Virus record (IMG/VR): IMGVR_UViG_3300048021_000343
Span: 1-29,987 of that record
From: a virus
Reading direction: 5' to 3' (one strand)
DNA: 29,987 bases
Of the stretch, positions 3,381-29,987 are shown piece after piece (position 1 is the stretch's first letter; each line of letters opens with the position of its first letter). Made by a program: the position numbers and the translations under genes. The notes beneath the pieces were generated by a model. The model searched no databases. It saw only the letters and a list, made by a program, of their open reading frames with translations, and was not told the origin of the DNA.

Positions 3381-4055
3381 CTATTTATCAATATCGGACT
3401 TGACTACTAATTTATCCACACGCCTAACATTAGATAGCATTAAACTGCATAATTGCAATGTTTTTTCGTCTCTAGCATAAAAATACATATCGTTTACATA
3501 CCCATTGTAGGTTAATTGTTCTAATAGTACAGGACCTACTTTAACTTGTCTAGTATTATTTTTAGCCCAATTAGCAAAGCCGGAAGTGTCGCCTACGTTA
3601 ACTCCAAACGTTACTTTATATTCGTATCCGTTGCTACTGTCAACAATAATAGTATTTGAATCAAGTGTTGGAATATGACTTGGATTTGGTTCCCAAAGTT
3701 CTAATAGGTTGTCTTTATTAATAGCACTTTTTAAAGTGTGTATCCATTCGTGGTTATTAGAGTATACACTAATATTAATGTTTTGAATTCGTAAAGTATA
3801 GTCGTCTCTTGCTCTAACTAAGAACTTATATAGTTTACGAGCATCTAAGAAACTTAATTCACTTACAGAAAGTACACGAGCAAAGCTCTTTAAAACTAAA
3901 GGCTGACCTGACTCGTATTGTTGTTGGAGTGTATCAAGAACCTCTCTAGCATGAGAAAGGTTCTTGTCTCTGAATATACTACCTATACTATTGTTAATAG
4001 CAAGTTTGTAAAGATACTTGCCCCAAAATAACTTAGTTGTCTCTAATTTCTTCAA
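3381..4055 (-). CDS. Conserved phage protein, 224 aa, unknown function
   Basis: A 224-residue soluble protein beginning MKKLETTKLFWGKYLYKL, overlapping the 3' end of the ClpA-like gene by 23 bases, so it is probably translated from the same mRNA. The N-terminal 80 residues look helical. The middle and C-terminal parts alternate strands and helices (ISVYSNNHEWIHTLKSAI, YEYKVTFGVNVG, MYFYARDEKTLQLC). No Walker, zinc or catalytic motif is visible. A partner or adaptor role for the ClpA-like unfoldase is conceivable from the tight linkage but has no sequence support. Confidence 0.65.
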   Translation of the reverse strand: MKKLETTKLFWGKYLYKLAINNSIGSIFRDKNLSHAREVLDTLQQQYESGQPLVLKSFARVLSVSELSFLDARKLYKFLVRARDDYTLRIQNINISVYSNNHEWIHTLKSAINKDNLLELWEPNPSHIPTLDSNTIIVDSSNGYEYKVTFGVNVGDTSGFANWAKNNTRQVKVGPVLLEQLTYNGYVNDMYFYARDEKTLQLCSLMLSNVRRVDKLVVKSDIDK

Positions 4056-6285
4056 CGACTTGACCTTCAGACTCTAGAACAAATGCGCCGTCCTTAAAGT
4101 CAACAGTTACCTTGCCGCCATCTTTTAAACTACCAAATAATAGTTCTCTTGACAGTGGACGTTTGATCTCTTTATCGATAACTCGTTGTAAAGGTCTTGC
4201 ACCCATCTTACTATCAAAGCCTTTTTCAACTAATTGATCTAATGCTTCATCAGTAATAATAATATCTACTTGCTTATCCTTAACCATATTTTTAAGTTCA
4301 ACAAGGAACTTGCCAACAATCTTCATCATTATCTCTTTGCCTAATTTAGCAAATGTAATTGTTGCATCAAGTCTGTTTCTAAATTCTGGTGCAAAGAATT
4401 TTTTAAGTTCTTTATCTTCGTATCCTGCGCCATCAAAGTCTTCGTCAAATCCAATAGTATTTTTCTCTGCTTCTTTAGCACCTAAGTTAGTAGTAAGAAT
4501 TAGAATACAATTACGTGCATCTGCTTCTCTACCATTAGAGCCTGTAACTTTACCATTGTCCATAACTTGTAATAAAATCTGTGATACGTCTGGATGTGCT
4601 TTTTCAATCTCATCTAGTAGTAATACACAATTAGGATTCTCTTGAATTTTCTCAATAAGTAACCCACCTTTTTCTTCGTGTCCTACATATCCTGGAGGTG
4701 AACCTAACAGTTTAGCAACAGCATGTTTCTCTTGATACTCTGACATATCAAAACGTACTAGTCCTACACCAAGTGCCGATGCAAGTTGTTTTGCTGTTTC
4801 TGTTTTACCTGTACCTGTTGGACCCATAAACACAAACGAACCTACTGGCTTGTCTTCCGGTTTAAGTCCTGCTTGTGCAACTAAAATTTTATCAACAATA
4901 CTTTCAATTGCTTCGTCTTGTCCGTATACTTGACTCTTAAGATTCTTTTCTAAGTTAGCAAGATTTTCTGTTTCACGTTCTGCTACTTGCTCTTCAGGCA
5001 AGTTTAACATTTTACTAAGTTCAAATTGTACACTACTTTCATCAACAATTTGTTGCTCAGGTGGTATTTCTTTTAGTTTAAATCTTGCACATGCAACATC
5101 TAACAAGTCAATTGCTTTATCAGGTAGTTTCTTGTCTGCTTGATATTTCACACTTAGTTTTACAGCCGCTTCAATAGCATCATCAGTAATTACAGTTTTG
5201 TGAAAATCTTCGTAGTACTTTTTAATACCATGTAAGATATCTTTTGTTACTTCTGAAGTTGGCTCATCAACTGTTACACGTTGGAATCGACGCATCAATG
5301 CACGATCCTTTTCAAAGTACTTGCGGTATTCATCCCAAGTAGTTGACGCAACAACTTTAATGTTACCTTTACTTAGTGCTGGCTTTAGCATATTAGCAAG
5401 GTCATTTGCACTGTTGCCGCCACCTGCGCCTGCACCACTTATCATGTGTGCTTCGTCAATAAACATAATTGTTTTGCCTTTGCCTTTTAAACCTGCTAGT
5501 ACAAGTTTAAAACGTTCTTCAAAGTCACCTCTATATTTTGAACCTGCTAGTAGCGATCCAATATCAAGGTTATAAACATTGTATTCTTTTAAAAACTCTG
5601 GAACTTGATCGTTAACAATTTTCCATGCTAGACCTTCTGCAATAGCAGTTTTACCAACACCTGGATCACCAACTAGTAGTACGTTGTTCTTTTGTCTACG
5701 TCCTAATGAAAGAGCAATGCTTTCAATTTCTTCAGCTCTGCCAATTACAGGATCAATTTTGTTTTGCTTAACTTCATCATTTAAGTTTGTTGTAAATGCT
5801 CGAAGTGCTTTTTGTCCTTGACCTGTTTCTGCTATGTCATCTTCTGTAGTTGTTATTTCTGTACTTACATATTCAGCAAATGCTTCTTTAGTAATACCTG
5901 CTTCTTCTAAGTAGTAAACTGCCATTGATTTCTTTTCTGCAAGTGTACTAACAAGTACATCAGTAAGATCAATTTCAGGACGGCCTTGAAACAACACTTG
6001 TGTAAATGCTCTGTTAAGAACACGTTCTACTGTTTGTGTTTTCTTTGGCTTGTATTTTGTTTCTTCTATTTTAATATCATCTAACTTAGTAGTAAGGTAA
6101 TGTTCTAAATTCTTTTTAAGATAGTCTACGTCTGAGCCAAAGCCCTTCACTACGTTATAAAAATTCTCCTCACAGAGCATTGCAAACACTAGGTGTTCTA
6201 GTGTTACATACTCGTGTTGTAACTTCTTAGCATCTTTAATGCTTTTCTCAAAAACCAACTGTAATGAATTACTCGGTTCAACCAT
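4033..6285 (-). CDS. clpA: ClpA-like AAA+ unfoldase with ClpP-docking IGF loop
   Basis: A 750-residue Hsp100 protein with the ClpA layout: an N-terminal Clp repeat domain (about 1-145, with LEHLVFAML), a first AAA+ module (Walker A GDPGVGKT 206-213, Walker B IMFIDEA at about 273-279) and a second AAA+ module (Walker A GPTGTGKT 488-495, Walker B LLLDEIE at about 555-561, sensor-2 region GARPLQRVI near the C-terminus). It lacks the long coiled-coil middle domain of ClpB. In the second module the segment KNTIGFDED (about 608-616) aligns with the IGL loop of ClpA and the IGF loop of ClpX that dock on ClpP. No clpP is in the window, so it could redirect host ClpP. It overlaps the deformylase by 8 bases and the 224-residue gene by 23. 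Confidence 0.92.
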   Translation of the reverse strand: MVEPSNSLQLVFEKSIKDAKKLQHEYVTLEHLVFAMLCEENFYNVVKGFGSDVDYLKKNLEHYLTTKLDDIKIEETKYKPKKTQTVERVLNRAFTQVLFQGRPEIDLTDVLVSTLAEKKSMAVYYLEEAGITKEAFAEYVSTEITTTEDDIAETGQGQKALRAFTTNLNDEVKQNKIDPVIGRAEEIESIALSLGRRQKNNVLLVGDPGVGKTAIAEGLAWKIVNDQVPEFLKEYNVYNLDIGSLLAGSKYRGDFEERFKLVLAGLKGKGKTIMFIDEAHMISGAGAGGGNSANDLANMLKPALSKGNIKVVASTTWDEYRKYFEKDRALMRRFQRVTVDEPTSEVTKDILHGIKKYYEDFHKTVITDDAIEAAVKLSVKYQADKKLPDKAIDLLDVACARFKLKEIPPEQQIVDESSVQFELSKMLNLPEEQVAERETENLANLEKNLKSQVYGQDEAIESIVDKILVAQAGLKPEDKPVGSFVFMGPTGTGKTETAKQLASALGVGLVRFDMSEYQEKHAVAKLLGSPPGYVGHEEKGGLLIEKIQENPNCVLLLDEIEKAHPDVSQILLQVMDNGKVTGSNGREADARNCILILTTNLGAKEAEKNTIGFDEDFDGAGYEDKELKKFFAPEFRNRLDATITFAKLGKEIMMKIVGKFLVELKNMVKDKQVDIIITDEALDQLVEKGFDSKMGARPLQRVIDKEIKRPLSRELLFGSLKDGGKVTVDFKDGAFVLESEGQVVEEIRDN

Positions 6286-6790
6286 GCTGTATTTTCCTCT
6301 TTTTAAGTTCTTTTAAACGTTTCTTTTTTGCTCGATCTAATTTTAGTCTACTAATGCGATCAGTAAATTCAATACCTTGTAAGTGATCGAACTCATGTAA
6401 AAAACATCTAGCATCTATGTCGTATAATTCTATTATACGTTCTTTTGCATCAATGTCAAGAAACTTGGCAACCAAACCTCTTGGTCTTTTTATAGTAAGA
6501 AATAAGTCTGGATGACTTAAACAGCCTTCTGGTAAGTCTTCATAGTTTACCGTTGCACTTTCAACAGTAGGGTTTATAATAACCAATGGACTATTATCTT
6601 CTAATAGGTGTGGTTTCATTACAAATATTTTAGCATCTAATCCTACTTGATTTGCGCTAAGTCCAATACCGCCTTCTTCTTTCATAAGGTCAATCATTTT
6701 TTCACTAATTGCTTTTGCATCTAGTTTTTCAAAGTCAAAGTCTACTACGACTTTTTGTAACCATGGGTCAGGTGATTTAATTAAGTGCAT
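6278..6790 (-). CDS. def: Peptide deformylase
   Basis: A 170-residue metalloenzyme that removes the formyl group from the initiator methionine of new proteins. All three family motifs are present: GIGLSANQ (41-48, motif 1), EGCLS (88-92, motif 2, metal ligand Cys90) and HEFDH (132-136, motif 3, metal ligands His132 and His136, catalytic Glu133). Length matches bacterial enzymes; a Lys/Arg-rich tail follows residue 145. The gene overlaps the DnaJ-like gene by 14 bases and the ClpA-like gene by 8, forming a block that handles new and misfolded proteins. Deformylases are known in marine T4-like cyanophages, where they can serve host photosystem proteins; here no photosystem gene is visible. Confidence 0.93.
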   Translation of the reverse strand: MHLIKSPDPWLQKVVVDFDFEKLDAKAISEKMIDLMKEEGGIGLSANQVGLDAKIFVMKPHLLEDNSPLVIINPTVESATVNYEDLPEGCLSHPDLFLTIKRPRGLVAKFLDIDAKERIIELYDIDARCFLHEFDHLQGIEFTDRISRLKLDRAKKKRLKELKKRKIQHG

Positions 6791-7577
6791 CTTTTATCCT
6801 CTCCAACTCTTGTACAATACCTTCATTCTCAATATTTGGTATTGCAGGGTTTAGTTTAACAATTATATTACCTCTGTGTCCGTCTTTAACATTAGGTATA
6901 CCGTAATTAGGAATTGCAAATTTAGCAGTCGGTTGTGTGCCTTTAGGTATCTTTACTGATAAGTCTTTACCATCTAAAGTTTTAAACTTAGCTTCTCCGC
7001 CCAATAATAAATCAAATACTGAGCATAGTAAAGTTATTACTAAGTTATTACCTTCACGCTTCCATAATGGATGTTCTACTACACTAATTTTTACAATTAG
7101 ATCTCCTGCTGGCAAATACGTGTTACTATCATCACCTAGGTCACGAAAGCGTATATTTACGCCATGTGCAACACCTGCTGGTATTTCAATATCAGCTTCT
7201 TTAACTCTGCCACTTTGTATCTTATACCTTGTTGCTAATGACTTACCTGATAGTACGTCTTGCAAACTAAGCGTAAGGTTAATCGTTACGTCTCTGTTCT
7301 TTCTTTGTCCCGGAGAAAATCCTCTCATAAAGTCTTCAAAAGGATTTTGGTTACTACGGAACCCACCAGTGTCAAATCTAAATTGCGGTGTTGGGTTATC
7401 GTACTGTGACCTTTTAGTTGGGTCACTAAGTGTATCATATGCTTCTGATATTTTTTGAAAGTTAGATTCATCACCTCCGCGATCGGGGTGATTTTTCATT
7501 GCGAGTTTTCGGTAGGCTTTTTTAATATCTGCTTGAGAGGCAGTTTTTGTAACGCCAAGAGTGTTATAGTGGTCCAT
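6777..7577 (-). CDS. DnaJ-like J-domain cochaperone without zinc finger (CbpA type)
   Basis: A 266-residue class-II-like DnaJ. The J domain (about 2-68) carries the HPD motif at 30-32, needed to stimulate DnaK-type ATPase. A Gly/Phe-rich linker (around FDTGGFRSNQNPFEDFMRGF) and two C-terminal beta domains (IEIPAGVAHGVNIRF, VKIPKGTQPTAKF) follow. The CxxCxGxG zinc repeats of classical DnaJ are absent, as in CbpA. I use the ATG at 7577 (MDHYNTLGV) since it places the J domain at the N-terminus; a GTG at 7601 would add eight residues, and no strong ribosome site supports either. It heads the DnaJ, deformylase and ClpA-like gene block. No phage DnaK is seen, so it presumably works with host DnaK. 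Confidence 0.9.
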   Translation of the reverse strand: MDHYNTLGVTKTASQADIKKAYRKLAMKNHPDRGGDESNFQKISEAYDTLSDPTKRSQYDNPTPQFRFDTGGFRSNQNPFEDFMRGFSPGQRKNRDVTINLTLSLQDVLSGKSLATRYKIQSGRVKEADIEIPAGVAHGVNIRFRDLGDDSNTYLPAGDLIVKISVVEHPLWKREGNNLVITLLCSVFDLLLGGEAKFKTLDGKDLSVKIPKGTQPTAKFAIPNYGIPNVKDGHRGNIIVKLNPAIPNIENEGIVQELERIKDALN

Positions 7578-7621
7578 ACTATTACTTATCGCACAGGCCA
7601 CTATGCAATATAATTATTGAC

Positions 7622-12451: not shown

Positions 12452-13177
12452 ATGGGTGCAAAGAGAAAAGCTCGTGATAAACGGGTCGCAAACGGTAACA
12501 GCAATGTTATCGAATTCAATACTTTTAACAAGAAAACATCAGTACAACTTATTCCAAGAAATAAACATCAAGAAACATATATCCTAAAATTGCTAGATAC
12601 GACCAAATCAATAGTTTTTGCTATTGGTCCTGCTGGCACGGGTAAAACTATGTTAGCAGTCCAAACGGCTGTGAAGAAGTTTAAAGAAGGTAATATTGAT
12701 AAGATCATTGTAACAAGACCAGCAGTATCGGTCGACGAAGATCTGGGGTTTTTACCAGGTACGCTAGAACAAAAAATGGCGCCTTGGACAAGACCTATAT
12801 TTGATGTGTTAAGAGAATATTTTGATGCAAAACAAATTGAAGGCATGATTGAAGAAGGCATAATTGAGATTGCTCCACTAGCATTTATGCGTGGTAGAAC
12901 TTTCAAAGACGCATATATTATTGCAGATGAAATGCAAAACGCAACCCCTAACCAGATGAAAATGTTATTAACAAGGCTAGGAGATAACTCAGAGATGGTC
13001 GTTACTGGTGACTTAGCTCAAGCAGATCGTAAAGTAGATAACGGTTTGATTGACTTTATTCACCAATTTGAATCACACGGTCAAAACAAGCACCTGGACG
13101 TAGTCCGTTTCGAACAAGGAGACATTGAAAGGCATGAGGCTGTAAAAGAAGTTTTATCGGTCTATGGCGACGAATAG
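12452..13177 (+). CDS. phoH: PhoH-like ATPase
   Basis: A 241-residue P-loop ATPase of the PhoH family, common in marine phages. Walker A is GPAGTGKT (59-66) and Walker B is IIADEMQN (156-163), with family motifs VTRPAVSVDEDLGFLPG (about 87-103) and VTGDLAQADR (184-193). PhoH proteins are linked to the phosphate-starvation regulon in E. coli and to RNA metabolism elsewhere; the phage function is unsettled. It has a basic N-terminus (AKRKARDKRV). A strong AGGAGG site lies 6 bases before the ATG. It is the only plus-strand gene in the window and converges on the sufE end. Confidence 0.92.
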   Translation: MGAKRKARDKRVANGNSNVIEFNTFNKKTSVQLIPRNKHQETYILKLLDTTKSIVFAIGPAGTGKTMLAVQTAVKKFKEGNIDKIIVTRPAVSVDEDLGFLPGTLEQKMAPWTRPIFDVLREYFDAKQIEGMIEEGIIEIAPLAFMRGRTFKDAYIIADEMQNATPNQMKMLLTRLGDNSEMVVTGDLAQADRKVDNGLIDFIHQFESHGQNKHLDVVRFEQGDIERHEAVKEVLSVYGDE

Positions 13178-13184
13178 AATTTTA

Positions 13185-13204
13185 GGGGAGGCTTAGGCTT
13201 CCCC
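13185..13204. terminator. Hairpin between convergent phoH and sufE
   Basis: GGGGAGGC-TTAG-GCTTCCCC forms an 8-pair stem with one G-U pair and a 4-base loop. It sits seven bases after the phoH stop, and the sufE stop codon lies in the loop. Neither side has a strong T run, so it is a weak bidirectional terminator candidate or an mRNA end protector. Confidence 0.5.
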
Positions 13205-13582
13205 GGTTTCCAAGACTTTCATTGTATTAATTAAGTTATTAACACCATTCTGTCTACCCATACTTAGCAACGGTGCTAAACCTATATCGGTAAGTGTGTT
13301 TATACTGAACGACTGACGTTGTGTGTTAGTTGCTTGATTGTACCAATCACAAATCATACCTGCTAGTCCTTTTACAATAGCACTATCTGCTTGACATGTA
13401 AATTGACTGTTAGAATACTTAACCCATAAAGAACTTGTACAACCTTTTATAAGATCGTTACTATTCCTTTCGAATTCTTGTACGCTAGATGCAGTAGTTC
13501 CGTATTCCATAATGAACTCGTACTTGTCCATTGCTTCCTCTAGTTCAAAGAGGTCTTCATACAAATTTTGAAATTCGAGCAT
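13193..13582 (-). CDS. sufE: SufE-like sulfur acceptor
   Basis: A 129-residue SufE-family protein, which takes persulfide sulfur from the SufS cysteine desulfurase and passes it to the SufB scaffold. The acceptor-cysteine loop is LIKGCTSSLWV, with Cys48 matching Cys51 of E. coli SufE (GCQS motif). The C-terminal helix region LAPLLSMGRQNGVNNLI matches the family pattern. Length is close to the usual 138 residues. The start overlaps the sufS 3' end by 26 bases, the longest overlap in the cluster; MDKYEFIM at residue 18 is a less likely alternative. It is the last gene of the 16-gene unit. Confidence 0.87.
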   Translation of the reverse strand: MLEFQNLYEDLFELEEAMDKYEFIMEYGTTASSVQEFERNSNDLIKGCTSSLWVKYSNSQFTCQADSAIVKGLAGMICDWYNQATNTQRQSFSINTLTDIGLAPLLSMGRQNGVNNLINTMKVLETGEA

Positions 13583-14720
13583 CGGCTTCCTTAATTGCTG
13601 TAAACGCTAGTTCTAATTCTTCTTTGGTAGTATAAGCACCCCAACTAACTCTTAATAGCCCTTTGTTGACGCTTATATTGCGTACTAGAGGCTCTGCACA
13701 GAGGTTCCCTCCACGTATCATAATATTTTTAGCATCAAGAAGCATTGTAAAATCTTCTATAGTACCGTGTTGTGGCACCATAGTTATAAGTCCTGTTTGG
13801 CTTGCGTAAGGATTGTTTTCGCACAAGTCATTAGCAACTACTGCTAGTGCTTTATCATGTGCAAGTATATCACTTTGATTTCTAATAAGCCAATTTAATA
13901 AGTTTGGCAAAGTGAATATTGCTTGTAAGTTCGGTGTACCGCTTTCAAATTTTTGTGCGTTAGTTAGATATGTTTCATGTAGATAACTTACTGCTGATAC
14001 ACTGCCACCGCCTGGATGTACTGGTGCTTTTTCTAACCACTTAGGATCAATCATTAAACAACCAAGTCCTGATGGTCCGTATACTTTATGCCAACTCCAT
14101 GCTACAAAATCAAAACCTTCGTAGTTATGATGTATTTTCCCCATGCTTTGACATGCGTCTACTATTGTAATTGCATTATATTGTCCTGCAATGAATCTTA
14201 TTCGTTCTAAATCATTGATAGTACCGGTAACATTACCAACGGCAGTTACAGCAATTATCTTAACTTCAGACTGGTCTTCACGTAGAGTTGCTTCTAAATC
14301 AGACAAATCTAACACACCAGACTCAGTTAGTTTTATATAATGACAATGATTGTAGCCTGTTGAGTGAAAGGGTAATGTAAGACTGTGATGAAAGTCACCG
14401 CCAACAAATACACTAAAGTCATCTTGTCTCCGTGTTGCTAATTGTATTGCGTCATACAATCCTTGTGTTGCACCACTGTTAAAAACAATTCTATCTTGTG
14501 GATCAGTAATACCAAGCCACTCGCCTATTTTTTCTTTTGCTGTATGATACTTCTCGTCTATAAATGCACCCATGCTATGCCCACTACGGTGTGCATTTGC
14601 TTTATATGTTAGAAACGTTCCTGTGTCAGTAATTACAGTGTCAAGTGTTTGACTTGTAGCGGCACTGTCCAGATACGTTAGGTCAGGGTGTTCTTTAAAA
14701 AACGGAAATCTATTTCTCAT
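13557..14720 (-). CDS. sufS: SufS cysteine desulfurase
   Basis: A 387-residue class-V aminotransferase-fold enzyme that removes sulfur from cysteine, giving alanine and an enzyme persulfide. Visible landmarks are YLDSAATSQ (16-24), HRSGHSMG (44-51), GATQGLYD (83-90), the His pair DFHH (109-112), the PLP-binding Lys212 in WSWHKVYGPSGLG, ESGTPN (259-264) and the catalytic loop RGGNLCAEPL with Cys341 (E. coli SufS Cys364). Arg357 in LRVSWG is the expected carboxylate contact. It is slightly shorter than E. coli SufS (406). The short catalytic loop and a SufE partner next door mark it as type II (SufS) rather than IscS. It overlaps mini-sufD by 11 bases and sufE by 26. Confidence 0.93.
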   Translation of the reverse strand: MRNRFPFFKEHPDLTYLDSAATSQTLDTVITDTGTFLTYKANAHRSGHSMGAFIDEKYHTAKEKIGEWLGITDPQDRIVFNSGATQGLYDAIQLATRRQDDFSVFVGGDFHHSLTLPFHSTGYNHCHYIKLTESGVLDLSDLEATLREDQSEVKIIAVTAVGNVTGTINDLERIRFIAGQYNAITIVDACQSMGKIHHNYEGFDFVAWSWHKVYGPSGLGCLMIDPKWLEKAPVHPGGGSVSAVSYLHETYLTNAQKFESGTPNLQAIFTLPNLLNWLIRNQSDILAHDKALAVVANDLCENNPYASQTGLITMVPQHGTIEDFTMLLDAKNIMIRGGNLCAEPLVRNISVNKGLLRVSWGAYTTKEELELAFTAIKEADARISKFV

Positions 14721-15165
14721 ACAAACTTTCCTTAAGAATATCTTTATAGTTTGTTATGCCTTTACTATGCAAATAGTATCTATCTTCTTGGCTAAGTGTA
14801 CCAAGTGCATTACCATGTGCGGCTTTAATGTCGTTATTTAAAACAAACATTTCAGGTCGTGCCTGGATTCTGCTTTTATCAAAAGGCCAACTTCTAATTT
14901 GCATATCAGTATCTACACCACTTGCGTCTTTAGCAACATAGCAACTAAGAATACAATCAACACTAGCATTGTTTTCAGCATATATTCTTACATTTATCTT
15001 ACTTAATGAATCTTTCTCAGGATGTACATTAATACTAACAGGACAATGTCCATGTTCTTGTATAACAGTAATATTATATTCTTCGTGATTTTCTACATCT
15101 TGCGGATGTAAATTTAACGATATACCGTTTTCGTTTGTGTATATTTTATTATAAGGTTTGGCCAT
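14710..15165 (-). CDS. sufD: Mini-SufD: short SufD/SufB-family protein keeping only the C-terminal beta-helix end
   Basis: A 151-residue protein placed where sufD is expected. The last third reads IQARPEMFVLNNDIKAAHG then LGTLSQEDRYYLHSKGI, matching the SufD signature KPQLEIYADDVKCSHGATVG...FYLRSRGI of E. coli. His117 aligns with SufD His360, a residue needed for cluster formation at the SufB-SufD interface; Cys358 of that motif is Ala here. The usual N-terminal helical domain and most of the beta helix (about 270 residues) are missing, and so are the last 40 or so residues. It is not a broken fragment at this locus: it has its own ATG overlapping sufC by 17 bases, and sufC leaves no room for a longer N-terminus. 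Partner is presumably the phage SufB. Confidence 0.78.
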   Translation of the reverse strand: MAKPYNKIYTNENGISLNLHPQDVENHEEYNITVIQEHGHCPVSINVHPEKDSLSKINVRIYAENNASVDCILSCYVAKDASGVDTDMQIRSWPFDKSRIQARPEMFVLNNDIKAAHGNALGTLSQEDRYYLHSKGITNYKDILKESLYEK

Positions 15166-15805
15166 TTGACAACTCTATTTGTTTAGTTGGGTAACTATCT
15201 TGTAAAAGTTGATCGTGTGTTACCAGAAACACAATACCACCGTCATCACATACTGACTTAATTAAATCAGTAACTTGTGAACGACTAGACTGTTCTAATC
15301 CACTGTCGGGCTCGTCTAACAATAGTACACGAGGCGTTTTTAATTTTGCCTGTGCTAGTTCATTCTTCTTACGTTCGCCACCACTTGCTCCGTGATTGAA
15401 ATCTCTTTGTGTCCAATCTTCAGGCAATGATAGTTCTTTAAATACACCTTTTGTTTGACGTATGATTTCAATCTTACGTGCATCAGGTGAATCAAACTTT
15501 GCAAATTCACTAAACAAAGACAATGTGTTTACACCGTCTAGTGTTGGCGGTGATTGATGTGCAATAAAGAATCCATTACGTGATCTTTCAAAGCATTCCA
15601 TGTCTAGTACATCTTCACCGTTAAATTCAATTTCTCCATCAACATCAATATCTGGACGTCCCATAATAGTATGTAATAAGGTACTCTTACCACTTCCATT
15701 ATGCCCTGTAACTAGAATACATTCGCCAGCATTTGCTTCTAAGTCAATACCATCAAGTATTTCTTTTCCGTTAATGCTTGCTTTTAGGTTTTTAATTTTG
15801 AGCAT
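15149..15805 (-). CDS. sufC: SufC ABC-type ATPase
   Basis: A 218-residue soluble ABC ATPase that powers the SufBCD scaffold. Walker A is GHNGSGKST (34-42), the Q-loop IAHQSPP (81-87), the signature GASGGERKKNE (139-149, with the SufC-like basic run after SGGE), Walker B VLLLDEPDSGLE (160-171) and the H-loop VTHD with His197. DSGLE after Walker B is typical of SufC (DSGLD). It is about 30 residues shorter than E. coli SufC (248). No membrane partner is nearby, excluding an ordinary transporter. It overlaps grxD by 14 bases and mini-sufD by 17. Confidence 0.92.
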   Translation of the reverse strand: MLKIKNLKASINGKEILDGIDLEANAGECILVTGHNGSGKSTLLHTIMGRPDIDVDGEIEFNGEDVLDMECFERSRNGFFIAHQSPPTLDGVNTLSLFSEFAKFDSPDARKIEIIRQTKGVFKELSLPEDWTQRDFNHGASGGERKKNELAQAKLKTPRVLLLDEPDSGLEQSSRSQVTDLIKSVCDDGGIVFLVTHDQLLQDSYPTKQIELSNGQTL

Positions 15806-16100
15806 TCAATGCCTCCGCTAATGATTTATCATGGAACATATCTACCATGATATCGCTTCCACCTTGGAATTCTCCATCAATATAAAGTTGAGGAATTGTA
15901 GGCCATTCACTATATTCTTTAATATTTTCACGTAGTTCAGCATCTGCTAGTACGTTACGTGTTTCAAAGTCAGCACCTAATACTTCTAGTATTTTTACTG
16001 CCTTCATACTAAATCCACACGCCGGAGCGTCTTTAGTACCTTTCATAAACAGAACTACTTTGTGTTCGTTTACTAAATTGTCAATTTCTTGTTTTGTCAT
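15792..16100 (-). CDS. grxD: Monothiol glutaredoxin, CGFS type
   Basis: A 102-residue protein with the CGFS active-site motif at 28-31 ([10 protein letters not shown]), the upstream lysine of MKGTKD and the glutathione-binding [18 protein letters not shown] region (66-83). CGFS glutaredoxins bind a [2Fe-2S] cluster with glutathione in a dimer and carry it to target proteins. Here it lies between sufB and sufC, where many bacterial suf operons have other genes, and no SufA or other A-type carrier is present, so it is the likely carrier of the system. Junctions are ATGA with sufB and a 14-base overlap with sufC. Confidence 0.93.
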
Positions 16101-17521
16101 CCTATACTCCCTTCCATTTGGACTTCTAATAATTTGTTTGCTTCAGCGGCAAACTCTAATGGTAATGTGTTAAGTACTGAATCACAGAAGCCATTAACAA
16201 TAGTACTAACTGCTTGTTCAGGATCTAATCCTCTACTCATTAAGTAGTATAACACTTCTTCACTTACTTTACCTGTGCTTGCTTCGTGTTCAATTTGTGC
16301 TGTTTCATTAGCAACATCAGTATACGGAATAGTATTACTAATACTATTACCACCAATCATTAAACTATCGCACTGTGTAAAGTTCTTTGCGTTGTCAGCA
16401 CCAGCACCCATTTTAACTAAGCCACGGTATGTATTTTTACTGTAACCTAATCCAATGCCTTTTGAAACAATAGTGCTTTTGGTATTCTTACCAATGTGCC
16501 ACATCTTTGTTCCTGTGTCTGCTTGTTGTCTACCTTTGGTTACTGCAACACTGTAGAACTCTCCTACACTGCCGTCACCTTTAAGTATACAACTTGGGTA
16601 CTTCCAAGTAACTGCACTACCTGTTTCAACTTGTGTCCAAGTAACACGACTGTTGTTACCTCTACACATTGCACGTTTAGTTACAAAATTGTATATACCG
16701 CCTTTGCCATTTTCATCGCCTGGGTACCAATTTTGTACTGTGCTGTATTTTATTTCAGCATTTTCTAAAGTAACAAGTTCTACTACTGCGGCATGTAATT
16801 GATTTTCATCACGCATTGGTGCAGTACAACCTTCTAAGTAACTTACATAACTATCGTCGTCTGCAATAATAAGTGTGCGTTCAAACTGTCCTGTGTGTTC
16901 AGCATTGATTCTAAAGTATGTGCTTAGTTCCATTGGACACGTTGTGCCTTTTGGAATGTACACAAAACTACCATCTGAAAATACTGCACTGTTAAGACAA
17001 CTAAAGTAATTGTCTTTTTGTGGAACAACACTGCCTAAATACTTTTTAACTAAGTCTGGATAGTCTTTTACTGCTTCACTAATACTACAAAATATTACAC
17101 CGTCTTCTAAAAGTATATCTTTAAAAGTAGTTGTAACACTTACACTGTCGTATACTGCATCAACAGCAACACCTGCTAGTTTTGCTTGTTCGTCTAATGG
17201 AATACCTAGTTTAGCAAAGTCTGCTAAAATTTCTGGATCTACTTCGTCCAAACTGTTTAGTAATTTTTTATGACGACTGTGGTAATACAATTCATCATAT
17301 TTAATTTTTGGATAATCTACTTCTGCCCAATTAGGTTCTTTCATAGTCTGTAAGGCTGTAAATGCTTTAAGTCGCCATTCTAATAACCACTCAGGCTCGT
17401 TGTTCTTATCGCTTATCAATCTAATTGTTTCTTCAGAAAGTCCCTTACCAAGGTATTCTGTCTCTACATTGGAAGACCAACCAGCAGTATACTCTTGTGA
17501 AACTTCTTTTTCTTCAATCAT
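16097..17521 (-). CDS. sufB: SufB Fe-S cluster scaffold protein
   Basis: A 474-residue SufB, near full length (E. coli 495). The N-terminal helical part (to about 125) is followed by the long beta-helix core with [24 protein letters not shown], and [20 protein letters not shown]. Key residues are kept: Cys384 in [10 protein letters not shown] aligns with E. coli Cys405, and Glu411-His412-Glu413 (IEHEAS) aligns with 432-434, all implicated in cluster assembly. The C-terminal SufC-binding helices are present ([20 protein letters not shown]). AAAGGTG lies 7 bases before the ATG. It overlaps the dCMP deaminase by 8 bases and is joined to grxD by ATGA. This is the intact scaffold of the cluster, unlike its shortened SufD partner. 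Confidence 0.95.
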
Positions 17522-17921
17522 TATGTATCACCTTTACTTTAGATTTCTTTAAAAATTCTATACCTACGCTACTTCGATATGCATCTTTATAATATACAGT
17601 ACTTATACCGCTCTGGTATATTAACTTAGCACATTCGATACAAGGAGCATGAGTACACAGTAATGTGGCATTTTTACCACTTTCGTGTGAACTTGCTAAC
17701 TTTGCAATAGCATTACTTTCTGCATGTAATACTTCAGGCTTAGATTTAAAGTGTTCATCTTCGCATGTATTATCCCATCCTGTGGGCATACCATTATAAC
17801 CAATACTAATAATGCGATCATCTTTAACAACAACAGCACCTACTTGTAAACGTTTGGCATGACTTAACTGTGCAAATCTTTCTGCTACGTCCATGTATGC
17901 ATCTATAAACTTCTGCTTCAT
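17514..17921 (-). CDS. Deoxycytidylate (dCMP) deaminase
   Basis: A 135-residue zinc deaminase converting dCMP to dUMP, the substrate for thymidylate synthesis. The zinc and catalytic motifs are HAES (66-69, His66 ligand, Glu68 proton shuttle) and APCIEC (92-97, Cys94 and Cys97 ligands). [20 protein letters not shown] is the usual N-terminal substrate-pocket stretch. It is the counterpart of T4 gene cd. With ThyX two genes upstream it completes a dCMP-to-dTMP route. The start overlaps the preceding gene by ATGA. Confidence 0.93.
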
Positions 17922-18136
17922 CTTTTTAATTGCTCAATCAAGTGTTCGTTTCTAGTATAGATATATTCCCAACTGCGTCCTTTAATAGGAGGTTTACCTA
18001 AATCATCATAATACGTGTGTTGAACATAGTACGGCGTTAGCCACATAAGTTTATGTGACCCACTGCGTGTAGGCCACCAAGCAAACTTTTCTTCAACAGT
18101 TCTCTGCGGATCAGCTTGCCAGTTTGCTCCCATCAT
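17918..18136 (-). CDS. Small conserved phage protein, 72 aa, unknown function
   Basis: The start is taken at the ATG at 18136 (MMGANWQADPQR), overlapping the thyX stop as ATGA; the longer reading to 18181 would lie inside thyX. The product is rich in aromatic residues (FAWWPTRSG, LMWLTPYYVQHTYYDD, WEYIYTRNEH), polar and without a membrane segment. It lies between thyX and the dCMP deaminase, and I do not recognise its function. Confidence 0.65.
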   Translation of the reverse strand: MMGANWQADPQRTVEEKFAWWPTRSGSHKLMWLTPYYVQHTYYDDLGKPPIKGRSWEYIYTRNEHLIEQLKR

Positions 18137-18807
18137 AAACTCTTTGCGATCGGAAACACTTCTGCTATTACTGTTGCACATGCTTTTGCAACATCCATAT
18201 GTTCTTTTTGTGTACCATTAGCACTGCGTAAATCAATGTAGTGTATCCAACTACGCAATGTACCGTTCATATACAAACGTGTTTTAGTAAGACCTTCTGG
18301 CAATACTTTACGTGCTACTTCTTTAGCAATACCATTTTCGATTGCCCAGTCATATGCACGACCACATGTATAAATTACATCTTGTTGTAATTCTTCCCAC
18401 TTGACTACTAGTTCAGCCATACCATCTTCTGACAAGTCTAATTCAATAGAGTTTTGTCTATTTTTAATATCCTGCATACGTGGTTCACTTGTAATAAACA
18501 CTTCGCCCATTTCACCTGGCTCTGCATAGCGTTGACTGAATTCTTGAAACGCAAAACTTCTGTGTCGCACAATTTGGTGTGCAATGTCTCTTGTAGTTTC
18601 AATTTCAATTACAGCATTTACCATTTCTAACGGTGACCAATGCTGATGTTTGATCAAATACTTAATCAAACGTTCACTTGTTTCTGTATTAATTTGTGCC
18701 GCAGGGTTTGATACCTTTGCACAAAATGCAACAAGCTCTTGAAGATCTGTTAAACCTTCTTGTGCAAATTCTGGTGTTGCTTGCGAATAACTTACTAGTT
18801 TAGCCAT
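18133..18807 (-). CDS. thyX: Flavin-dependent thymidylate synthase ThyX
   Basis: A 224-residue enzyme making dTMP from dUMP with methylene-tetrahydrofolate, FAD and NADPH. The ThyX signature RHRSFAFQEFSQRY (81-94, RHRx7S form) is intact, and the C-terminal substrate region KVLPEGLTKTRLYMNGTLRS and WIHYIDLR is present. ThyX replaces the ThyA of T4 in many marine phages. It sits in the gapless unit with the dCMP deaminase, clamp loader and ferredoxin. The start overlaps the preceding small gene by 8 bases. Confidence 0.95.
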   Translation of the reverse strand: MAKLVSYSQATPEFAQEGLTDLQELVAFCAKVSNPAAQINTETSERLIKYLIKHQHWSPLEMVNAVIEIETTRDIAHQIVRHRSFAFQEFSQRYAEPGEMGEVFITSEPRMQDIKNRQNSIELDLSEDGMAELVVKWEELQQDVIYTCGRAYDWAIENGIAKEVARKVLPEGLTKTRLYMNGTLRSWIHYIDLRSANGTQKEHMDVAKACATVIAEVFPIAKSL

Positions 18808-18991
18808 GTTTACTTAAATCCTCTCCATTGCGACCACGGTCTCTATTACCGTCGCCATTAAGCTCTGTTAAATCTTGTTGTTTTATTTTTTGATCTTTGT
18901 TGCCAAAGATTTTATCATAGTTGTCTCGATACTTTTCTGTAGGAGTCTTGCTTCTTAGTTCGTCCCCAGTTATATCGTTTCGTGTCGTCAT
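18800..18991 (-). CDS. Small charged phage protein, 63 aa, unknown function
   Basis: A 63-residue hydrophilic protein ([20 protein letters not shown], then [15 protein letters not shown] and a Gly/Asn/Arg/Asp-rich tail), probably partly disordered. Its start overlaps the ferredoxin stop (ATGA), and its end overlaps thyX by 8 bases. No motif suggests a function. The composition makes an accessory or binding role more likely than an enzyme. Confidence 0.62.
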
Positions 18992-19338
18992 TTTATTTCC
19001 TTAAGAGGTATAATACCAAACTCTTCATATTTGTTAGGATATCCATCCCATTTGTCGTGGTCGTCCAAAGGCGCAATTTGTTCAGCAAGTACCGGAGCAC
19101 CTGAATCAACAACTTTACGGTTTATGTCATCCCACTTCTCTCGTTCTTCACTACGCAATTCAGTATCCTCAAAGATAGCACCAACTGGACATTCTGGAAC
19201 ACAGACTCCACAGTCAATACATTCTTCAGGATTGATTGCGAGAAAGTTTTCTGCCTCATAGAAGCAGTCTACTGGACAGACTGCTACACAGTCTGTATGT
19301 TTGCATTTAATGCAGTTGTCTGTTACTAAGTATGTCAC
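18988..19338 (-). CDS. fdxA: 7Fe ferredoxin ([3Fe-4S][4Fe-4S], FdxA type)
   Basis: A 116-residue bacterial ferredoxin. Its nine N-terminal cysteines (9, 12, 17, 21, 25, 40, 43, 46, 50) match those of Azotobacter ferredoxin I with a shift of one: Cys9, 17 and 50 for a [3Fe-4S] cluster, and Cys21, 40, 43 and 46 for a [4Fe-4S] cluster. Motifs are [17 protein letters not shown] and [18 protein letters not shown]-terminal acidic extension follows, as in FdxA proteins. It is unlike the plant-type [2Fe-2S] PetF ferredoxin of cyanophages. It would be both an electron carrier and a client of the phage Suf proteins in the same unit. The start shares one base with the clamp-loader stop. Confidence 0.94.
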
Positions 19339-20252
19339 TACAACCTCGCTAGTTTAATTAGCACTGCGGCTAAGTTTATCTCCGGATCAACAACAAGTGT
19401 ATGATCCACCAGTCCTTGTTTAATAATTAGCACTGCTTGATCCTGCTGGGTATCATCTCCGAACAGCGATATGTTATCATACAACCATCGGTAAACTTCT
19501 TCCATCTCTTCAGGACGAATAGCGCCACATAGCAATTTACGTGCTTCTTGAATCTTGCCTGCTTTAAACAATTCAACCATGTCAAGTTTCCAATCACTTT
19601 CACCTGTATCTCCTTCATTAGGAGCAAGTAGTGATCCGTCTTGCACGTTCATCTGTACCATATTTATGCACTTACGTAAGTCAGGGTATGTTGCTTTTAC
19701 ATAGGTATCGAGCGTATCCAAATCAGGAGTAACACCTTCGGTAATAAGTATTTCAGCGACTCGAGCTGTGAACTCTGTTTGGTCAATTTTAGCAATGTGA
19801 AAACCTTGACACCTACTATGCAAAGCGGGAATAACACGATTTGGATAGTTACAAGTAAGAATGAAACGAGAAGTAGTATGATACTCTTCCATAACACCAC
19901 GCAACGCCGCTTGAGCGTTTGGGCTAAGATAGTCTGCCTCATCTAGTAATACAACCTTAAAGTCCCCAAATGGGATCATCTGTACAAAGTTTACAATTTT
20001 ATCACGTACATCATCTACTGAGTTTGTTCGCGATGCGTTTATTTCTAAAATGTCTAAGTCATTCAAATCTAATTCATTAAACAATAATTTAGCAAGTGTT
20101 GTCTTACCAATACCTGCGTTACCACTAAACAGCAAATGCGGAATAGTTTTTTCTTTAATCCAGTTTTTTACTTGACTGCGTTGTGCTTCATCACGAAATA
20201 CGTAACCATCTACTGTTTTCGGACGATACTTTTCTACCCATAATTCTTTCAT
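19338..20252 (-). CDS. 44: Sliding clamp loader large subunit (T4 gp44-like)
   Basis: A 304-residue AAA+ ATPase of the clamp loader. Walker A is GNAGIGKT (44-51), Walker B VVLLDEAD (100-107), the sensor-1 region [14 protein letters not shown] (131-144) and the arginine-finger motif SRC (146-148); the start [19 protein letters not shown] is the family hallmark. It loads the gp45-type clamp, which in T4 also activates late promoters. The gp62 partner and the clamp are not in this window. It lies in the early unit with DexA and joins the upstream membrane gene by ATGA. Confidence 0.93.
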
Positions 20253-28306: not shown

Positions 28307-28314
28307 TATTTATT
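28307..28314 (-). promoter_or_regulatory. Late promoter box AATAAATA for the 240-aa fibre gene
   Basis: The minus strand reads GTAATAAATATAG, 20 bases above the ATG at 28287. Its first TAA is the stop codon of the upstream fibre gene. Confidence 0.62.
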
Positions 28315-29987
28315 ACATACGTCCTACAACTACTTCAATGACACCTTTGCCATCGCTGTCTTTGCTTTCGACTGCTTTACCAATTACTGTACCTAGTTTA
28401 GGATCATTATCAACCATTGCATAACCTGGTATTGCACTTGTTACAAGCATGTCACCTTTTTCAACAGTGCCAATAACTTTACAAGGTACACGCCCTGTTA
28501 GTGCCAGTTCAACAACTGTATCACCTTTTAGTGCATTGTTCATTAAGTATGCAGGATCTGTTGAAACAACACCTGCAACCTTACGATCACCTTTTGCTGT
28601 ACAAATTGTAACTTCATTGTCGCCACCAAATACTAATACTGTACCTGGCTCGTATGCTTGATCACCTACATATTTCTCAGCCAAGTCAGCAAAGTTAGCT
28701 GAACTTGCTGTACCACTAAAGTTAGTTGCTGTTAGTGTTGAATCACTAGGTCTGTATTTTAAACCATTTCCACCATCTTTATCAATGCTTAGTGATTGTG
28801 ATGCACCGTTTGAATCTGTAAATGTAATAAAATAGTCACTAGCACTAGAGTTAGTATTAGAAACTGCTATATTTGCACTTGCACCATTTGATACTGCATT
28901 AGCAACATCAGTTGTAGTTGCATAGTTATTATTACTAAGATATGTTGATACTCTAGTGTCTGTGTAGTATAAGTTAGTACCTTCTGATAAGTCAGCAGTA
29001 TCATGGTTTGATAAACTAGATACTTGACCAGTAACGTCTCCAGTAAATGTAGCATCGTCTCCATCAGTTCCTGCTTCAAGTATTTTACTTGTTCCGTCAC
29101 TTGCGTAAATGTCTGCTGTTAATAATCCAATACTACTTAAATTGCTACTACCAATGTTAATTGTATCTGCGCCAAGTTGACCGTTTAATGTTAAGTTACC
29201 GTTACTTGGATTCAGTTTAAAGTTAGCAGTAGTAAATGCCGCATGTCCTGTTCTAGATGTATGAGCTGGGTTACTTGTTACCCATAGTGGATAAACATCT
29301 GCATCTGTTGCAGTACCATCTTCCTGCGATGATTGAAGTGTGTCTGCAACACCTGCAGTATCAACACCACCTGTTAATGGACCATTAAACTTACCATAGA
29401 ACACACTAGCGTTAGCATCTGAGCCAGCTAGTACTGTACCTACATCAACAATTACGTTACCACTACTGTCTTTAATATCACCGTGATGTGTACCATAGTT
29501 ATCAGTAACATATGCTTTACTCCAAGGAGTACCACTTGTACCAAGAGTCTCTGTATTATTTGCTACTATGTTAGCACTAGATGTTATTGTATCACTAATT
29601 ACAAGTCTATTAGCAGTTGTACTTACGCCACTTGCTGTAGCAAACACAATATTACTTCTCTCGCCGGAGTTAGTTACTTCAGTAGCATTTGCAGTAATAG
29701 TTGATTTTATTTGATCTAGTGTAGTTGATACTGCACCATTACTTTGGAAAGTAATAACACCTAAGTCATCACCACCAGCAACATTGTCAGTTGTTTTTTG
29801 GAATTTTAAATTAAATCCTGCCGCACCGTTATCATCAAGTCTAAGTTCTAATACTTCGTCAGTGATAATAGCGTTTGTTGTAATAGTATCTGTAACTGCA
29901 TTTCCTAATTCAATGTTACCATTAAACGCAACATTACCAGTAACAGTTAAGTCATTATCAATTAGAACATTGTTACTAAATTGAGCA
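28313..29987 (-). CDS. Tail fibre protein, N-terminus outside the window (at least 557 aa)
   Basis: The frame is open to the window end without a start, so only the C-terminal 557 residues or so are seen; the GTG at 29647 is internal. The visible part is a long Thr/Asn/Ser/Gly-rich beta structure with repeated units of the form LTVTGNVAFNGNIELGN and LTLNGQLGADTINIGSSN, typical of fibre shafts. The last 130 residues form a distinct domain starting SANFADLAEKYVGDQAYEPG, with VAGVVSTDPAYLMN and GDMLVTSAIPGYAMV and ending VIEVVVGRM. This end domain recurs in phage fibre proteins and may be a chaperone or self-cleavage domain, which I cannot confirm. Confidence 0.82.
   Translation of the reverse strand, partial: AQFSNNVLIDNDLTVTGNVAFNGNIELGNAVTDTITTNAIITDEVLELRLDDNGAAGFNLKFQKTTDNVAGGDDLGVITFQSNGAVSTTLDQIKSTITANATEVTNSGERSNIVFATASGVSTTANRLVISDTITSSANIVANNTETLGTSGTPWSKAYVTDNYGTHHGDIKDSSGNVIVDVGTVLAGSDANASVFYGKFNGPLTGGVDTAGVADTLQSSQEDGTATDADVYPLWVTSNPAHTSRTGHAAFTTANFKLNPSNGNLTLNGQLGADTINIGSSNLSSIGLLTADIYASDGTSKILEAGTDGDDATFTGDVTGQVSSLSNHDTADLSEGTNLYYTDTRVSTYLSNNNYATTTDVANAVSNGASANIAVSNTNSSASDYFITFTDSNGASQSLSIDKDGGNGLKYRPSDSTLTATNFSGTASSANFADLAEKYVGDQAYEPGTVLVFGGDNEVTICTAKGDRKVAGVVSTDPAYLMNNALKGDTVVELALTGRVPCKVIGTVEKGDMLVTSAIPGYAMVDNDPKLGTVIGKAVESKDSDGKGVIEVVVGRM

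Follow-up and report, generated by a model that had tools for sequence, protein, structure and literature searches.

The closest described relatives of the locus reported here are the bacterial SUF operons for iron–sulfur (Fe–S) cluster assembly (sufABCDSE in Escherichia coli, sufBCDS-sufT-sufA in Alphaproteobacteria) and the SMS system (SmsB/SmsC, the archaeal SufB2C2), likewise a reduced SUF scaffold, which according to the accessible part of PMC12442378 has no SufD. Single Fe–S genes of viruses are carriers or lone components: an A-type carrier and iscU in viromes (PMC5332604), sufE without sufS (PMC8940887), sufA (PMC10580990) and nifU (PMC7785012), as described in the accessible portions of these papers. 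Here, in contrast, a 29,987-base stretch from a virus record (IMGVR_UViG_3300048021_000343; 'the window' below is this whole stretch) carries on its minus strand, at 13193–17521, six genes for SufB, a CGFS glutaredoxin, SufC, a 151-residue SufD, SufS and SufE, bringing scaffold, ATPase, desulfurase and acceptor together. An earlier reading of the same DNA (the original prediction) had remarked that phages carry single Fe–S genes. The window probably encodes a jumbo-phage-borne SUF module that would build Fe–S clusters in the infected cell.

The locus shares SufB, SufC, SufS, SufE, a SufD and their catalytic residues with bacterial SUF. Unlike those operons it is phage-encoded, has a SufD of 143–156 residues in the window and its kin, a 218-residue SufC and a glutaredoxin between SufB and SufC. 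Unlike SMS, it has a separate short SufD (mini-SufD), and its SufB scores as a SufB, far under the SmsB cut-off (192.1 against 650); neither mark of an SMS system, a missing SufD or an SmsB-type scaffold, is present. Word searches within the accessible parts of three jumbo-phage papers (PMC9123017, PMC12619734 and PMC13037316) and of PMC12911398, PMC9611531 and PMC12570018 returned no viral SUF operon. No report of a multi-gene phage SUF operon was found in the literature searched, which leaves out most subscription papers and bioRxiv preprints. Its novelty is accordingly provisional, and we provisionally regard the phage operon as a variant of the SUF system not reported in that literature.

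Gene content and catalytic sites

The original prediction called six overlapping Suf genes, and each open reading frame (ORF) is found in place on the minus strand and passes its Pfam gathering score (score/threshold: SufE, 83.6/27; Aminotran_5 in SufS, 226.7/21.5; ABC_tran in SufC, 76.4/25; Glutaredoxin, 75.2/22.9; SUFBD_core, 254.8/27 in SufB and 42.1/27 in mini-SufD). Adjacent frames overlap by 4 nucleotides (nt; SufB/glutaredoxin), 14 nt (glutaredoxin/SufC), 17 nt (SufC/mini-SufD), 11 nt (mini-SufD/SufS) and 26 nt (SufS/SufE), and a dCMP deaminase gene overlaps SufB by 8 nt. Overlaps continue in a chain from the clamp loader (20252) down to the stop codon of SufE (13193), measuring 1–49 nt upstream of the SUF genes; PhoH lies 15 nt beyond that stop, on the opposite strand.

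The best NCBIfam families for the six are SufE, SufS, SufD, SufC, Grx4 and SufB. Cut-offs of these models, stricter than those of Pfam, are exceeded only by SufB (both SufB cut-offs; 818.6 against 717) and the Grx4-family glutaredoxin. Since the remaining four score under the cut-offs of the correct models (SufC, TIGR01978, 163.0 against 212.8; SufS, TIGR01979, 215.4 against 475.1; SufE, 48.4 against 160), they are, judged by sequence, genuine but diverged SufC, SufS, SufD and SufE.

Residues were assigned by alignment to solved structure chains, which bore out the catalytic residues that the original prediction had named in SufS, SufE, SufC, SufB and mini-SufD. SufB C232, C384, E411, H412 and E413 correspond to E. 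coli C254, C405, E432, H433 and E434 and are unchanged across ten viral SufBs, so the sulfur-acceptor Cys, the assembly-site Cys and the Glu expected of a SUF scaffold are all present. SufS aligns at both its pyridoxal phosphate (PLP) lysine, K212, and its catalytic cysteine, C341, and SufE C48 aligns to the acceptor Cys. Compared with E. coli SufC, a 248-residue chain, the phage protein is 30 residues shorter and retains Walker A, signature, Walker B (LDEPDSG) and switch His. The glutaredoxin carries its CGFS motif and is likely a [2Fe–2S] carrier. The desulfurase, acceptor, scaffold and carrier set described in the original prediction is thus present.

Mini-SufD comprises the C-terminal half of the SufD β-helix and two short C-terminal helices. 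Its Pfam match begins at core position 129 of 232, and the canonical full-length architecture (N-terminal helical domain, whole β-helix core, C-terminal helical domain) is not seen. H117 is the equivalent of E. coli H360, providing the SufD histidine expected of a SUF system, and position 115 (E. coli C358) is Ala; with ligand roles of the SufB/SufD cluster-site residues taken from the accessible part of PMC5571166, the missing residue is the redundant one. The His is present in eight of eight mini-SufDs, which have Ala, Thr or Asn two positions ahead of it, and likewise in the SufDs of loci L008, L009, L012, L013, L031 and L033, which keep the Cys except for L009 (Ala). A model predicted from an eight-row alignment has nine strands followed by two short helices (mean predicted local distance difference test score, pLDDT, 78.8). 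In structural comparison it matches chains of SufB/SufD entries best, aligning to chain E of 5awg (residues 312–488) with Z 9.6 and to SufD 1vh4 (residues 239–421) with Z 7.5, the best unrelated row reaching 6.9 and values of Z < 8 possibly reflecting merely a common arrangement; Foldseek E-values are weak (best 0.028).

In our sample, intact SufDs this short came from phages. The 29 phage SufDs measured fall at 143–156 (eight), 188–194 (five), 286 (one) and 384–431 residues (15), and 73 of 74 bacterial SufDs have at least 250, the exception (104 residues) being cut by a contig end; this survey obtained no SufD for eight of 37 phage and six of 80 bacterial loci. Run against 20 bacterial genomes, the mini-SufD profile matched 17, every match lying in an open frame of at least 266 residues.

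Phage context, kin and ancestry

Eleven window ORFs are collinear with the jumbo phage Paride over 58.9–84.6 kb (two antisense shadow ORFs were excluded from the count), in the order DNA polymerase piece, two small genes, clamp loader, PhoH in reverse, two virion proteins, DnaJ, ClpA, a further small gene and a cytidylyltransferase. Two more matches, the dCMP deaminase and ORF 28313–29647, sit elsewhere in Paride. In the 45-kb part of Atu_ph07 compared, the order is identical but PhoH shares the strand of its neighbours, and RaK2 has a virion protein relative. On this gene order, shared with Paride and the compared part of Atu_ph07 around the clamp loader, PhoH, virion proteins, DnaJ and ClpA, the window is phage DNA, probably of the jumbo-phage kind represented by Paride/PA5oct (Wroclawvirus), Atu_ph07 and RaK2. 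The 'T4-type' flanks of the original prediction prove too narrow a label: they are T4-related in a broad sense, with these jumbo phages as nearest isolates. None of the isolates was among the 22 phage records that matched SufB.

Phage origin itself, also proposed originally, holds on further grounds. Three contigs (L001–L003) align gap-free across the SUF genes over 18.4–19.6 kb; their differing IMG/VR names and 99.85–99.91% identity indicate separate assemblies rather than copies. A kin contig of 235,561 bases (G036) carries the operon at about 62–67 kb together with major capsid protein, portal, head protease, hub, wedge, late sigma and baseplate genes, its capsid protein being 66% and its portal 53% identical to those of Paride. 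A contig above 200 kb with a related capsid gene is thus found in a relative, the window itself being a 29,987-base record. The Gp23 capsid Pfam model matched three of the first 36 records, the large SUF contigs G015, G023 and G031 (G036 was not one of the 36), and phrog_9, picked as a guessed hallmark, had no match in 14 records.

That bacterial DNA was misassembled onto a phage, or misclassified as one, is hardly credible here, even though host DNA does occur in virus databases. The record of Microcystis phage MaAM05 (L036, MW495066.1), for instance, has sufBCDS-iscU beside pxpA, panB and panC and a SufB among bacteria, and looks like bacterial DNA. For the window, chimerism and host contamination were rejected on the collinear phage backbone on both flanks, the separate gap-free contigs L001–L003, the kin operon on a contig with capsid and portal genes, and the viral SufB clade described below. 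The original prediction would have yielded to a chimeric assembly or to trees placing the genes within bacteria; examined on contigs rather than reads, the region is crossed unbroken by L001–L003, and SufB lies in a viral branch apart from the best 80 bacterial loci.

Some Staphylococcus phage records (H4, H7, H8) have SufB at their very start, which suggests a host flank or attachment site. Prophages integrated in the sufB gene of Latilactobacillus sakei (accessible part of PMC9641780) could explain some SufB-bearing phage records that we set aside. Those set aside as likely host DNA were the SufB-bearing Staphylococcus, Listeria and Enterococcus records, three faecal records and MaAM05.

Scans of viral contigs with SufB, mini-SufD and SufS returned 35, 10 and 12 loci, respectively, with many contigs in common, and the check proposed originally, whether the cluster is shared, was answered by syntenic SUF clusters in other viral contigs. 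The slot between clamp loader and PhoH is filled in Paride by two small hypothetical genes and in the window by ferredoxin, ThyX, dCMP deaminase and the SUF genes, in that order, with one small gene on each side of ThyX. A clamp-loader search gave at least 80 loci, and the 48 of 80 inspected were all those with at least 50% identity. SUF genes lie near the clamp loader in one of these 48 (L225, same contig as L005), and L216 lies on a contig (G023) whose SUF genes sit about 30 kb away. Clamp loader and PhoH are both visible in 37 of the 48, with no match to the window SUF genes between them in any of the 37; a whole-contig SUFBD search was without a match in 24 of 25 contigs and gave one partial match in the other (G050). 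Four relatives with clamp loaders 84–92% identical (L190, L192, L193, L202) fill the slot with ferredoxin, ThyX or dCMP deaminase, without SUF; in another (L131, 8001–9188 on contig G040; clamp loader 92%), the site between dCMP deaminase and PhoH is occupied by a lone SufS that retains its Lys and Cys. Operons of the L004/L122 group are located on the opposite side of the clamp loader. Because SUF is absent or reduced to SufS in the slot of near relatives, the clamp loader–PhoH interval (window 13178–19338) is a hotspot for cargo genes with SUF as an accessory cassette, and the module is not essential to the phage lineage.

Kin phages carry a longer operon. By comparison with the genes of G036, where SufE is followed by a PF01883 protein (SufT type), one intervening gene and a PF01521 A-type carrier, the same tail of SufT, small gene and carrier was identified after SufE in all seven mini-SufD kin loci compared (L004, L005, L006, L121, L122, L127 and L138). 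The window operon is therefore a trimmed version of the kin operon. The original description of the pathway as near-complete fits the window, and falls short in that kin also carry SufT and the A-type carrier. Locus L001 is also without the tail, and its contig has a distant A-type carrier. The glutaredoxin lies between SufB and SufC in the window, L121, L122, L123 and L127 and was not found there in L004, L005, L006 and L138. In a different viral SUF arrangement, G015 and L010 have SufS upstream of SufB, and on G015 SufD is far off (198-residue frame).

The kin order B-C-D-S-(E)-T-A-type carrier is shared with seven of eight alphaproteobacterial loci (SufB-C-D-S-T-A-type carrier in L060, L088, L107, L094, L102, L112 and L041, the SufD of L041 being placed through the length survey); in the eighth, L050, no SufT or carrier was seen, and in gammaproteobacterial L047 the order of carrier, SufT and SufE is different. 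From this common order we infer an ancestor operon of alphaproteobacterial type.

In a quick, midpoint-rooted SufB tree (117 rows, 36 from phages; bacteria represented by the best 80 loci of the scan), 32 phage rows including the window form one branch (Shimodaira–Hasegawa-like approximate likelihood ratio test support, SH-aLRT, 99), apart from those 80 loci and MaAM05. Within it the window belongs to an eight-row group (SH-aLRT 99) of mini-SufD phages. L002, L003 (both from the virus of L001) and L123 (match as in L122) were left out of the trees, the SufB tree also omits L032 and L121 (too short), and the SufS and SufC trees omit opposite-strand, too short, too long and low-scoring rows. All 30 phage rows of the SufC tree share one branch (98), with long branches meeting near the window; the SufS tree, in which three branches are very long and compositions are odd, groups the window with a further nine phage rows (100). 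Four phage SufBs (L011, L017, L025 and, near Pelagibacteraceae, L031) fall outside the main SufB branch, so SUF was probably acquired by phages more than once. L031, on a 328-kb contig (G031) with a Gp23 match, a Pelagibacter-like SufB, a 192-residue SufD and 22 radical S-adenosylmethionine (radical-SAM) matches, is apparently an independent acquisition. Other short viral SufDs (188–198 residues) sit on separate SufB-tree branches, including that of L031, which suggests that SufD shrank in viruses more than once.

The window SufB is 74–76% identical to full-length SufBs of kin phages, 68% to the closest bacterial SufB among the best 80 loci and 69% to the best among the matches listed for 398 genomes of one phylum (256 of 398 match); SufS is about 30% identical to the top-scoring bacterial SufS in the comparison set. 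The trees proposed originally to find the donor resolved a viral SufB branch and, among those 80 bacterial loci and the matches listed for the 398 genomes, no donor. Of 26 kin comparisons, 21 had finite dS (SufB, glutaredoxin, SufC, mini-SufD, SufS, SufT and carrier); their ratio of nonsynonymous to synonymous substitution rates (dN/dS) is 0.015–0.28, indicating purifying selection; for SufB of the window against L032 it is 0.059 (first 270 codons). We give roughly even weight to the idea that viruses evolved a SUF lineage of their own, distinct from the sampled cells, with SufD cut to its SufB-facing half and traded among jumbo phages.

Proposed function and competing explanations

If the six genes are expressed and their products form an active complex, they would by homology suffice for assembly from cysteine to cluster. 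SufS would strip cysteine of its sulfur and hold it as a persulfide on C341, with PLP on K212; SufE C48 would take it up and pass it to SufB C232, from where it would travel through the SufB β-helix to C384. ATP binding by SufC would open the SufB/mini-SufD interface, the nascent cluster being held by SufB C384 and E413 and mini-SufD H117, with SufB E411 or H412 as a fourth ligand replacing the lost SufD Cys358. The CGFS glutaredoxin, in kin phages together with the A-type carrier and SufT, would deliver clusters to client proteins, for example the nearby ferredoxin. A virus so equipped may be able to make Fe–S cofactors without host machinery. The original prediction went further and spoke of a metabolic takeover, which is not supported as stated and which we keep as an inference.

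Several observations weigh against a working assembly module. Near relatives lack it, and one has SufS alone; SufC, SufS, SufE and mini-SufD score under their NCBIfam cut-offs; the window is without SufT and an adjacent A-type carrier; five of the 26 dN/dS comparisons, including the sole one for SufE, are saturated; and mini-SufD lacks the N-terminal domain as well as half the core, its model being moderate, with pLDDT of 35–74 in blocks past residue 100. The relative that retains only SufS, at the same site and with Lys and Cys intact, also invites the reading that SufS/SufE is a sulfur source for some other use, such as tRNA thiolation, with the scaffold genes as passengers. We consider this improbable: in kin, purifying selection on SufB, SufC and mini-SufD is of similar strength to that on SufS, and the cluster-site residues are retained. 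Slimmer still is the chance that mini-SufD acts together with SufB and SufC to poison the SUF complex of the host rather than to build clusters. A truncated subunit retaining the SufB-facing half could in principle act as a dominant negative, but mini-SufD is encoded beside a full conserved partner set of desulfurase, acceptor and, in kin, carriers, and the H360 equivalent is never lost from the eight mini-SufDs checked.

A more open question is whether the module mainly feeds the phage's own Fe–S enzymes (radical-SAM proteins, ferredoxin) and not those of the host, which we hold possible at somewhat less than even odds. The many Fe–S clients envisaged in the original prediction would fit five large SUF-bearing contigs with 17, 15, 23, 22 and 11 radical-SAM matches (23 on G015, 22 on G031), and a ferredoxin belongs to the overlapping unit of the SUF genes. 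Other SUF-bearing contigs above 100 kb (G004, G027, G029, G030) have only two or three matches each, SUF-less relatives also hold them (14 on a 316-kb contig) as well as the ferredoxin, and the window, a fragment, has none. Among contigs of at least 100 kb, radical-SAM density did not differ significantly between four SUF-bearing (G036, G041, G004, G023) and seven SUF-less members of the clade (G043, G046, G048, G049, G052, G053, G055; p=0.16), nor after addition of five further SUF contigs (G015, G031, G029, G027, G030; p=0.20); G023 and G030 have identical SufBs and may be one virus twice, and as contigs are incomplete, some 'SUF-less' labels may be wrong. With no significant difference in density, radical-SAM demand was rejected as the explanation of SUF carriage. 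Cluster supply during failing host synthesis and demand from phage clients are equally compatible with the data.

A dense radical-SAM cluster is at 145–166 kb of G036 (L166, L167), where nine of ten scanned proteins, a selection from 19 ORFs of at least 180 residues, match Radical_SAM, eight of them above cut-off; such a region favours supply of the phage's own enzymes. Two proteins of this cluster have SPASM domains.

Neighbouring genes and meaning for phage biology

Features of the window are listed in Table 1. The FdxA-type ferredoxin is a candidate Fe–S client or electron donor. The T4 late-promoter motif has one match in the window, below chance expectation, and promoter- and terminator-like sites there are within about one standard deviation of shuffled sequence.

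Table 1 Positions of the SUF genes and their neighbours in the window
Feature	Position	Strand	Evidence
SufB scaffold subunit, 474 residues	16097..17521	-	Pfam, NCBIfam, structure-based residue alignment
Monothiol CGFS glutaredoxin, 102 residues, Grx4/GrxS14/Grx5 type	15792..16100	-	TIGR00365, 134.8 bits against cut-off 117.1
SufC ATPase, 218 residues	15149..15805	-	Best NCBIfam family SufC, under its cut-off
Mini-SufD, 151 residues	14710..15165	-	Pfam SUFBD_core, residue alignment, predicted model
SufS-type cysteine desulfurase, 387 residues, K212 and C341	13557..14720	-	Pfam, NCBIfam, residue alignment
SufE sulfur acceptor, 129 residues, C48 within GCTS	13193..13582	-	Pfam, residue alignment
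FdxA-type ferredoxin	18988..19338	-	FdxA_Protbact, 137.1 bits against cut-off 135
ThyX thymidylate synthase, co-resident of variable slot	18133..18807	-	Pfam, NCBIfam
dCMP deaminase-like gene, immediately upstream of SufB	17514..17921	-	Pfam; 8-nt overlap
Clamp loader, backbone marker at one slot edge	19338..20252	-	55.6% identity to jumbo phage Paride
PhoH-like gene, backbone marker at other slot edge	12452..13177	+	52.6% identity to Paride
Two virion structural proteins (PHROG 13138, PHROG 12928), phage backbone	11047..12296	-	
ClpA-like protease ATPase, presumed peptide deformylase-like gene, DnaJ-like gene	4033..7601	-	ClpA and DnaJ matched in Paride, Atu_ph07

The locus adds an entire assembly line to the single components reported among viral Fe–S genes; with it, a phage could supply a basic cofactor after host shutdown. 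Related phages form a graded series, from a nine-gene operon through six genes and SufS alone to none, in which the pathway's cost and its use can be tested. Mini-SufD, for its part, is a natural deletion experiment, indicating which portion of the full protein may be enough to assemble clusters.

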